Source of the DNA: Candidatus Gastranaerophilales bacterium
GTDB taxonomy: Bacteria > Cyanobacteriota > Vampirovibrionia > Gastranaerophilales > Gastranaerophilaceae
DNA: 64,000 nucleotides
Direction of reading: 5' to 3'
Assembly: GCA_944326605.1 (NCBI GenBank)
Contig: CALVEM010000002.1
Span: forward strand, 62,001-126,000
The notes under the pieces are model-generated. The model did no database searches, was not told where the DNA came from, and saw nothing but the letters and a program-made list of their open reading frames with translations. Shown here piece by piece: positions 17,131-59,517 of this stretch (position 1 is its first letter; each line of letters begins with the position of its first letter). The position numbers and the translations under genes were made by a program.

Positions 17131-17187
17131 TTAGCCGAGGAGTGCCCCCCCCCCGAAGCTCTTCAATTTTTCTAATAATCTTTTCAT
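17131..17187 (-). other. Prepilin 5' leader ORF ending after a G10 tract
   Basis: ATG 17187 follows GAAAGGAGTAAAAT and encodes 'MKRLLEKLKSFGGGALLG' before a stop at 17131. The C10/G10 run is at 17145-17154. One extra G (or two fewer) joins this leader in frame with the pilin at 16046 with no intervening stop, as checked by reading the codons through 17068. Read as the switched-off form of a phase-variable gene, or as an assembly miscount of the homopolymer. Confidence 0.6.
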
Positions 17188-18426: not shown

Positions 18427-19008
18427 ATGAACAATAATTTATTTCATACAAATTTTAATAAAAGATTAAACGATTATGATTTAAATATTTTAAATGATAA
18501 TTCTTTTAAAGATCTTGATGACAAAACGCTAAAACTTGAATGTTTGATAGCGGAAAAAGAGCAGACACTTGATAACCTGAATTCAAAAATAAAAGGAGCC
18601 GAACTTTTAGGCAAGCTGCTTGATGTTATGGATTTAAAAATCCGTGCAAAACAAATAGAAAACGAACTTGTTCAACTTAAAGAAGAATATTCAAAGCGCA
18701 ATATAACAGAAAAGCTCACAGATGTTATAACCCCTAAAAAACAAAAAACTAAATTATCGCCGATACATCGCCTTGCACGTTTTGTATCCAGAAAAATCAT
18801 TGCGAAATTATCAAAAAAATTCAAATCCATACTGGATTTGAGTGACTCGCTTGAAACACTGGAAAGTATAAATGAAAACGTCGATGAACTAATAGCAATG
18901 AAAGTTCCTTACGGCGAAACAAAAGCAAATTACGAAAAACTTACCAACTATCTTTACCACGCAAACAGAATTCATTCACAGATTAATAAAAAAATGCAGA
19001 AATTATAA
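18427..19008 (+). CDS. Coiled-coil hypothetical protein
   Basis: About 193 residues from ATG 18427 (a TTG at 18412 overlapping the permease stop is the alternative). Mostly helical with coiled-coil character about 35-100 ('LKLECLIAEKEQTLDNLNSK', 'QIENELVQLKEEYSKR') and a basic middle ('HRLARFVSRKIIAKLSKKF'). No signal peptide or known domain. Abuts the LptF-like gene and is probably cotranscribed; function unknown. Confidence 0.65.
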   Translation: MNNNLFHTNFNKRLNDYDLNILNDNSFKDLDDKTLKLECLIAEKEQTLDNLNSKIKGAELLGKLLDVMDLKIRAKQIENELVQLKEEYSKRNITEKLTDVITPKKQKTKLSPIHRLARFVSRKIIAKLSKKFKSILDLSDSLETLESINENVDELIAMKVPYGETKANYEKLTNYLYHANRIHSQINKKMQKL

Positions 19009-19045
19009 AAATTTTAATAATATTGCGTTAAAGTTAAATTTATAT
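19007..19045 (+). promoter_or_regulatory. Promoter of tiny-peptide locus A
   Basis: ATTTTAATAATATTG is followed by the -35 TTGCGT, 17 bp, then TATGAT. The same 15-bp word precedes locus B (about 40253-40268), where it also overlaps a TTGACT -35. Shared upstream sequence argues that the two loci are related. Confidence 0.5.
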
Positions 19046-19077
19046 TATGATTATTTTGTAGGGTGCACATACTTACC

Positions 19078-19112
19078 CCTGTCACACACAATTTACGTAG
19101 AAATTGGACAGG
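19078..19112 (+). promoter_or_regulatory. Leader hairpin abutting the Shine-Dalgarno of locus A
   Basis: CCTGTC (19078-19083) pairs with GACAGG (19107-19112), and CAATTT (19089-19094) with AAATTG (19101-19106), loop ACGTAG. The right arm shares its last bases with the start of GGAAGGAGGT, so the stem can hinder ribosome binding. Confidence 0.5.
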
Positions 19113-19127
19113 AAGGAGGTAGTTGCT

Positions 19128-19202
19128 ATGATTGACAAAATAATAATGCTACTAATAGCATTTGATATACTCTTAGTAGCACTAAAATTGTTCAAATCAT
19201 AG
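19128..19202 (+). CDS. Tiny hydrophobic peptide (locus A), type I toxin-like
   Basis: 24 residues, read directly as MIDKIIMLLIAFDILLVALK followed by LFKS: a short charged start, one hydrophobic helix, and a basic end. It follows GGAAGGAGGT with ideal spacing, the strongest ribosome site in this part of the window. The coding DNA contains a 9-bp inverted repeat (TGCTACTAA at 19147-19155, TTAGTAGCA at 19173-19181). A nested terminator hairpin begins at its stop codon. Architecture matches single-helix type I toxins (Fst, TxpA and holin-like groups), but no family could be assigned. A second locus with the same layout is at 40382. Confidence 0.6.
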   Translation: MIDKIIMLLIAFDILLVALKLFKS

Positions 19203-19253
19203 GGTGCGTAGAAGCTCTTAACACCAAGCTTAAATTGTTAAGGGCTCACCCTA
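19200..19253 (+). terminator. Nested hairpin terminator of locus A
   Basis: Outer arms TAGGGTG and CACCCTA enclose inner arms CTCTTAACA and TGTTAAGGG with a 12-nt loop; A/T-rich sequence follows. Begins at the stop codon of the peptide. Confidence 0.65.
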
Positions 19254-19350
19254 CACATATATTATTTACGATTTTTTACAATTTGTCAAGTGTTGCAAAA
19301 CCGCTTGCGAAACTGTTATTTTTGTCATAAAATTTTTTTGTAAGTCTATT

Positions 19351-40290: not shown

Positions 40291-40381
40291 ATTAAATTGA
40301 GGGTAAGCCCTGATATCATATCCATACCTTTGCGGCGCAAACTATAAATTTGTCAAACCGAAAAAGGAAGGAGGTGATAGA

Positions 40382-40450
40382 GTGGATTTCAGTATAACTG
40401 AAAAAGCACTAGTGCTTATCTTGTTGATAATACTAGTGCTCAAACACTAA
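40382..40450 (+). CDS. Tiny hydrophobic peptide (locus B), type I toxin-like
   Basis: 22 residues from GTG 40382, read as (M)DFSITEKALVLILLIILVL followed by KH: short polar start, one hydrophobic helix, basic end. The site AAGGAAGGAGGTGAT upstream is close to a perfect complement of the 16S 3' end. The coding DNA contains a 9-bp inverted repeat (AGCACTAGT at 40405-40413, ACTAGTGCT at 40432-40440). Same architecture as locus A at 19128 but little peptide identity. Probably a membrane-active small peptide; toxin role is inferred only. Confidence 0.6.
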   Translation: MDFSITEKALVLILLIILVLKH

Positions 40451-40452
40451 CA

Positions 40453-40500
40453 GGGGCTTTTAATGGGGCAAGCTGGAACTTGTCCCGCCCTTTTCTTTTA
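40453..40500 (+). terminator. Nested hairpin terminator of locus B
   Basis: Outer GGGGC/GCCC and inner GGGGCAAG/CTTGTCCC (one G-T pair), loop CTGGAA, then TTTTCTTTTA. Confidence 0.75.
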
Positions 40501-40556
40501 TTATAACTTATGTTTTTAAAAATTTCAAGAGTTAACCTAAAGAAATTATTACATCA

Positions 40557-58638: not shown

Positions 58639-59517
58639 ATGATTAAAGTAAGTGTAATAGTTCCGGTTTATAATACTGCAAAGTATCTTGAGAGATGTCT
58701 TGATACTCTGCTTAACCAAACGCTTGATGACATTGAAATTATTTGCGTCAATGACGGTTCAACAGATAATTCTTTAGAAATTTTAGAAAAAATCAGCAAG
58801 TCCGCCCCCCCCCCGAAACTCCGTATTATTACGACTAAAAATCAGGGGATTTCCCATGCCAGGAATACGGGTATGAGTGTCGCACAGGGTGAATATATCG
58901 GATTTGTTGATTCGGATGATTGGGTTGATATTGATTTTTTTGAAAAACTCTACAATGCCGCAAAAAAATACGACTGTGACATAGCCTGCGCGGATTTTAT
59001 AAGACAGCATCCCAAACAACAAAAAATCAGACTTAACATAACAGAAGAAAAAGTTTATACAAAACCGGAAGATAAATATCTTGCCTGCAAAACATACAGA
59101 GAAGGCTGCGTCTGGAACAAAATTTACAGAACGAATTTTTTAAAAGGCATAAATCTGGAATTTATTACGGGAATGTATTATGAAGACAGAGATTTTACGG
59201 CACGCGCGCTGTATTTTGCGAACAAACTCGTAACAGTTCCAAAAACTTACTATTACTATTTTGTTAACCCTAAATCCATTGTAAAAAAAGGCGGAAACAA
59301 ACTTCAGGACGAACATTATATTCTTGCCCGCCGTCAGGTGCTTGATTTTATTAAAGAAAAGAATATAAATGTTCCGGACGGACTTTACAGAGCAGAAAAA
59401 TCAAGATTTAAGATATTCGGCAAAACACTGTTTTCCATCCGCGAAAGTATTAACACTGAATATGTATTACTGTTCGGAAAAATTAATATTTTTAAGTACA
59501 AAAAGAGGAAAATATGA
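58639..59517 (+). CDS. GT2 glycosyltransferase with a C10 tract
   Basis: 292 residues. 'VSVIVPVYNTAKYLERCLDT', 'ICVNDGSTDNS', 'GISHARNTGMSVAQGEYIGF' and 'VDSDDWVDIDF', as in its neighbour. At 58805-58814 a run of ten C encodes part of 'SKSAPPPKLR', in frame as sequenced. Removing one C would give a stop (TGA 58874-58876) about 23 codons later and truncate the enzyme before 'VDSDDW'. So the gene is ON here and probably phase-variable. Overlaps the next gene by 4 bp (ATGA). Confidence 0.9.
   Translation: MIKVSVIVPVYNTAKYLERCLDTLLNQTLDDIEIICVNDGSTDNSLEILEKISKSAPPPKLRIITTKNQGISHARNTGMSVAQGEYIGFVDSDDWVDIDFFEKLYNAAKKYDCDIACADFIRQHPKQQKIRLNITEEKVYTKPEDKYLACKTYREGCVWNKIYRTNFLKGINLEFITGMYYEDRDFTARALYFANKLVTVPKTYYYYFVNPKSIVKKGGNKLQDEHYILARRQVLDFIKEKNINVPDGLYRAEKSRFKIFGKTLFSIRESINTEYVLLFGKINIFKYKKRKI
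58805..58814 (+). repeat. C10 homopolymer tract in a glycosyltransferase gene
   Basis: Ten consecutive C in a strongly A/T-rich genome, inside the coding region between the two GT-A motifs. Candidate slipped-strand switch. Confidence 0.85.

Follow-up and report, generated by a model that had tools for sequence, protein, structure and literature searches.

Layout of the locus on the two strands

Between positions 19023 and 19290 of the window (the whole stretch of 64,000 nucleotides that was analysed), the plus strand carries a predicted sense promoter, a leader hairpin, an ORF encoding a hydrophobic peptide of 24 amino acids, and a 3' hairpin. The features of this locus, and of a second copy in the same window (locus B), are as follows.

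19023-19051, plus strand: putative sense (toxin) promoter TTGCGT-17-TATGAT, a weak match judged by consensus alone
near 19058, plus strand: predicted start of the sense transcript, from the promoter position
19057-19065, plus strand: 5' arm TGTAGGGTG of an outer inverted repeat, whose predicted partner is the mRNA 3' end
19074-19112, plus strand: leader hairpin with the upstream anti-SD segment ACUUACC, from fold and covariation
19111-19120, plus strand: Shine-Dalgarno (SD) sequence GGAAGGAGGT, abutting the leader hairpin and partly sequestered in the predicted fold
19128-19202, plus strand: toxin-candidate ORF of 24 aa, MIDKIIMLLIAFDILLVALKLFKS, with SD, start and open frame
19200-19255, plus strand: 3' hairpin from the stop codon to CACCCTACA, with paired helices and sense-favouring wobbles
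19137-19181, minus strand: putative antisense terminator within the ORF, stem TGCTACTAA...TTAGTAGCA with U-rich tail UUAUUAUUUU, from wobbles and U-tract
19137-19256, minus strand: predicted antisense RNA of about 118 nt with two stem-loops, deduced from promoter and terminator
19261-19289, minus strand: putative antisense (antitoxin) promoter TTGACA-17-AATAAT, 11/12 consensus matches
40296-40528, plus strand: locus B, with the same layout as 19023-19290
40382-40450, plus strand: ORF of locus B, VDFSITEKALVLILLIILVLKH, of a different peptide class
40405-40413 and 40432-40440: in-ORF stem of locus B, arms AGCACTAGT and ACTAGTGCT
40528-40500, minus strand: putative antisense promoter of locus B, TTGAAA-17-TATAAT

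The leader stem was formed by the arms CCTGTC (19078-19083) and GACAGG (19107-19112) and by CAATTT (19089-19094) and AAATTG (19101-19106). The outer inverted repeat, TGTAGGGTG at 19057-19065 and CACCCTACA at 19247-19255, was complementary at 9/9 positions. The hairpin after the stop codon (AGGGTG...CACCCT with a nested stem) is predicted to be the terminator or stability stem of the sense RNA and also the 5' stem-loop of the antisense RNA. The predicted mRNA had a minimum free energy of -61.9 kcal/mol, beating 200/200 dinucleotide shuffles (z = -5.3), and the predicted antisense RNA one of -39 kcal/mol. No Rfam family matched at the locus. In other copies, TATAAT or TAAAAT occupied the position of the sense -10 element.

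A promoter, a leader hairpin abutting GGAAGGAGGT, a 24-residue ORF, a repeat inside it and a post-stop hairpin had been described by an earlier, sequence-only reading of this DNA, and all of them are in the sequence. The antisense promoter at 19261-19289 lies just beyond the interval then given, 19007-19260; both it and the outer repeat had been missed. The 9-bp inverted repeat noticed in the coding DNA (TGCTACTAA at 19147-19155, TTAGTAGCA at 19173-19181) is likewise present, within a pair of 36-nt arms that are 75% complementary, and what had gone unnamed is its apparent role as a terminator for the antisense strand.

The BLAST query used on relatives ended at 19262, so that the minus-strand -35 element lay outside it. 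The 21 full copies found by this DNA search could be aligned from the leader to that element: 20/21 carried TTTGTCAA and the remaining copy TTTTTCAA (TTGAAA), and similarity among them dropped just past it. The same promoter type (TTGACA-17-AATAAT / ATCGTAAATAAT) was also observed upstream of prepilin-like genes of the own genome (L176-L181), and thus seems to be a common strong promoter there. The six weak R2 matches in that genome, L176-L181, were rejected as copies, since they corresponded to these prepilin-gene promoters.

Locus B was convergent with alaS, and at least three further copies were located in the own genome, at C6:73390, C2:183776 and C4:86486. Runs of ten C were seen near coding regions of the window at 17144-17153 and 58804-58813, and elsewhere in the genome similar runs of ten G stood where prepilin-like genes begin; these are possibly phase-variable tracts.

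Spread of the module and diversity of its peptides

The DNA search matched 19/58 genomes, counting the own one; a few of these matches were short and chance-like. A covariance model, R1, extending from codon 3 to the antisense -35 element, matched 62/117 genomes of the family and 30/41 genera (E <= 0.1). All matching genomes but one in an order-level sample belonged to this same family, and a broader model matched 91/289 genomes of a class-level sample at E <= 1e-5, the matches listed all being in the same family. The sequence-only reading had proposed a new small membrane-peptide family and had named lack of conservation in relatives as the finding that would speak against it; the search was run, and ORF and locus are both conserved.

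Copies were dispersed, with up to 13 per genome in these searches. Named contigs carrying the leader were mostly titled Candidatus Gastranaerophilales or Melainabacteria; one contig titled Muribaculaceae that carries the leader motif (L164, JAMPCZ010000032.1) is probably mis-binned. Tandem modules, sometimes of differing peptide classes, were seen in a single intergenic region at L095, L097, L124, L148 and L150. A survey of neighbours returned diverse chromosomal genes and no common partner.

The site upstream of gatA illustrates how the module may be present or absent at orthologous spacers. This spacer measured 62-99 bp in at least 10 relatives without the element and approximately 440 bp in G000 and G018; it held a different class-1 version in G021 and G032 and a different class (MNRELIKKALAILELLIKLIIVLI) in G009 and G028. 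A copy from another genus (L041, in G076) also adjoined a gatA-like gene. No target duplication was evident at the gatA site. A MITE-like inverted repeat (ATATCGCAGTTTACACTAAAT...) was observed upstream of gatA in L192 and L193, and the L192 site (G024) has apparently lost the module, with its edges left behind.

In IMG/VR, two copies lay on phage-like contigs. One (L171) was located between tape-measure-like and tail-associated genes and the other (L269) had an amidase-like gene beside it, on a contig that also carries an integrase, these gene names being given by eye from translations. L171, L264 and L269, which are copies or a decayed remnant, all stood among clustered phage genes, and tape-measure-like genes adjoined two of the three. 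Phage and plasmid collections gave no DNA match, an IMG/VR pattern search with the leader and class-2 patterns found none, and two IMG/VR promoter-pattern matches (L169, L170) were rejected as copies.

An ORF with intact SD and start was retained in 138/152 distinct copies; 67 copies encoded exactly 24 aa and the others mostly 20-32. The peptide was hydrophobic in all but a few copies (mean GRAVY 1.69), with a net charge mostly between +1 and +3. By eye, at least seven peptide classes could be distinguished on one RNA chassis, examples being MVDKIIMLLLAFSIAVIALKL, IIKTVITVIITVLQIIIYWL, a 32-aa KEKAPELELLELFLNS type and a FSITEKALVLILLIILVLKH type. The dN/dS ratio of the ORF, 0.57, was similar in an alternative frame and is uninformative, the same bases being constrained by RNA structure; evidence for coding selection therefore rests on the SD, the intact frames and codon position 2, which varied least. 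Searches of Pfam and NCBIfam with six peptides (E <= 10) gave no match save a non-significant one to DUF6728, the remaining classes had no profile match, and a PHROGs search returned nothing meaningful. With ORFs of only 20-32 codons, the modules are invisible to annotation.

Selection on the two strands

A terminator-like structure on the minus strand occurred at the in-ORF position in 151/152 copies, clustered within a few codons, compared to about a third of shuffled controls, at any position. The mean folding energy of the ORF region was similar on both strands, and strand assignment therefore rests on the placement of wobble pairs and on tails. Among 95 non-redundant copies, the in-ORF stem contained 111 G-U pairs formed only in the antisense RNA versus 25 formed only in the sense RNA, a ratio of 4.4:1 where composition predicted 1.36:1; stricter thinning left 38:5 and 17:4 (antisense:sense). 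The bias was reversed in the 3'UTR hairpin (195 sense versus 100 antisense). U-tracts of at least 6 of 9 followed the ORF stem on its antisense side in 51 copies, compared with 5 copies for the sense side. Wobble bias and U-tracts thus indicate that the ORF palindrome is maintained for the sake of the antisense RNA, and the 3' hairpin chiefly for that of the mRNA. Comparison of the sequences shows RNA selection on the antisense strand, and asking which strand tolerates G-U pairs reveals such selection without RNA data.

Covariation was observed in the sense structures as well. The 3' structure scored 0.571 (109 copies), with shuffles reaching 0.18 and slid partners no more than 0.127, in an alignment that was fitted to the model and so favours the structure; its helices were 97.8-98% paired, with changes on both sides. 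For the leader, a sequence-only MAFFT alignment of 44 leaders showed two-sided changes in 51 cells of the 5-bp stem, where shuffles gave 18.3 (0/500). The 5' and 3' ends of the mRNA covaried across copies (T/C vs A/G, Fisher p = 2e-6, relatedness ignored). The best 5'-3' helix scored at least 12 in 40/152 copies versus 1 in controls, and this pairing is therefore strong only in part of the family.

Since R1 contains the antisense promoter, the R1 set is biased toward copies having one, and a leader-only model (R3) was used for this reason. R3 gave more than 100 matches, most adjoining an R1 match. Of its 20 matches without an R1 partner, 18 were accompanied by a minus-strand promoter spaced as expected, in most cases TTGAAA or TTGACA-16-TATAAT; in L260 and L268 this promoter was weak by consensus, missed by the scan and recognised by eye, and L260 also had a degraded SD. 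The antisense promoter was absent from L264 and L267, in which the ORF was likewise lost. No antisense-dead copy with a clearly intact ORF was found in the R1 set and the 20 R3-only matches. In the other direction, the ORF caller failed 14 R1 copies in which the antisense promoter was intact: ORF losses in this set included lost starts (L108, L122), no start (L157) and early stops (L082, L151), and altered SDs were seen in L089, L091, L113 and L118. This would be the decay pattern expected of a toxin-antitoxin pair, within the limits set by the R1 bias. As judged by this comparison of sequences, an intact ORF depends on an intact antisense promoter. Altogether the architecture, conservation and selection of the module are well supported.

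A type I-like toxin-antitoxin model and its alternatives

We propose that the module is a chromosomal type I toxin-antitoxin system, with a probability of about 85%. In this model, the plus-strand gene would yield a structured mRNA with paired 5' and 3' ends, its leader masking both ribosome site and start codon. Unmasking, probably through RNA processing, would allow synthesis of a 24-residue single-helix membrane peptide harming the membrane. From the stronger convergent promoter, just past the mRNA 3' end, an antisense RNA of about 118 nt would cover the 3'UTR and the ORF back to approximately codon 4, where the hairpin built into the coding sequence would terminate it before the SD is reached. 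Codon 4 or so lies within the initiation footprint of a ribosome. The sense/antisense duplex would thus enter the footprint of the initiating ribosome and be a target of RNase III, so that the peptide would be made only upon loss of the antisense RNA. We infer this function: that both strands are transcribed, that the peptide is translated and, by analogy with known type I systems, that it damages the membrane and that the RNAs undergo RNase III cleavage and processing.

Predicted folds are consistent with the masking step. In full-length mRNAs of 66 copies, the predicted unpaired probability of the start codon was 0.12 versus 0.31 with shuffled leaders, and that of the SD 0.41 versus 0.51 with shuffled leaders and 0.60 with the leader removed. 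The predicted masking thus appeared only moderate for the SD across copies and clearer for the start codon. In the full-length RNA predicted for the locus at 19128, most GGAGG bases were paired, and the start codon almost fully so.

A non-toxic regulatory membrane micropeptide, its synthesis controlled by a cis-antisense RNA, would produce the same RNA anatomy, as antisense control alone would account for it. We consider this unlikely: the seven or more peptide classes sharing one chassis, the numerous copies in a genome, presence or absence at orthologous sites and toxin-dead copies that retain the antisense side all fit a toxin better. Much less probable is a MITE-like structured mobile repeat with an incidental ORF. 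The quasi-palindromic unit of approximately 250 bp, its dispersal and the empty sites in relatives agree with such an element, whereas the retention of SD, start and open frame in 138/152 copies, the hydrophobicity of nearly all peptides, the conserved second codon positions, the strand-specific RNA selection and the lack of target duplication at the gatA site do not. A leader peptide or attenuator, here of gatA, could also be suggested by a short ORF that runs into a terminator-like hairpin and precedes a gene of the same direction. This reading, the least probable of all, was rejected by orientation, the downstream neighbour being codirectional in 26 copies and opposite in 39; moreover locus B faces alaS convergently, gatA stands without the element in many relatives, and no amino acid forms a run in the peptide.

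The proposed toxin-antitoxin module resembles several known systems. In bsrG/SR4 and txpA/RatA of Bacillus subtilis, the toxin and antisense genes converge and overlap at their 3' ends, as they would here; their toxins are longer, and the present peptides have no Pfam or NCBIfam profile match. Fst/par (RNAI/RNAII) and Ldr encode single-helix toxins of about 25-35 residues behind a structured leader, which the short single-helix candidate and its leader recall. The two par RNAs share one bidirectional terminator, whereas each RNA here would have its own, and the peptides have no profile match to Fst or Ldr. The antisense RNA suggested by the sequence-only reading gains sequence-level support from the minus-strand promoter, the terminator and the strand-specific selection, while the kinship it drew to Fst, TxpA and Hok did not hold, the peptides not being homologues by any profile tested.

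The best reading is a new type I-like family of Gastranaerophilales whose mode of action would be closest to that of aapA/IsoA of Helicobacter, in which the mRNA is masked and processed (PMC6733600). This likeness to aapA/IsoA of Helicobacter and Campylobacter, drawn from architecture and by description, comprises several chromosomal copies, a short toxin, a cis-overlapping antisense RNA and, close to the SD, a hairpin with an anti-SD segment upstream (PMC6733600). Long-distance 5'-3' pairing of the mRNA, a further trait of aapA/IsoA, is predicted here and strong in part of the family (PMC6733600). In contrast to aapA/IsoA, the lineage is unrelated, the predicted fold pairs the SD with the leader and not with the 3' end, the in-ORF palindrome would act as antisense terminator, and many peptide classes share one chassis.

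No paper joining Gastranaerophilales with type I toxin-antitoxin systems was found in the literature searched, the nearest being that on msoT1/msoA1 of Microcystis aeruginosa, a pair reported to be the first candidate of type I from the cyanobacterial phylum (PMC12390103). Its cis antisense RNA, with two predicted hairpins, also covers the ORF's 3' end together with the 3'UTR; compared by description, MsoT1 is larger (about 8.8 kDa when tagged), has two predicted membrane helices and belongs to a different class from the Gastranaerophilales peptides (PMC12390103). Type I systems were earlier reported only from Proteobacteria, Firmicutes and Tenericutes, with the single Microcystis candidate added in 2025 (PMC12390103). 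The present module would be a large multi-copy type I family, previously unnamed, in a gut lineage of the phylum of Microcystis, its hosts being non-photosynthetic gut relatives of cyanobacteria. Tentatively, and with more doubt than belief, the one RNA chassis, with its masked leader, convergent promoters and antisense terminator within the ORF, might be a swappable cassette in which unrelated toxic peptides are exchanged and which is spread by prophages and recombination. If true, this would mean that each genome has its own collection of addiction or anti-phage modules.
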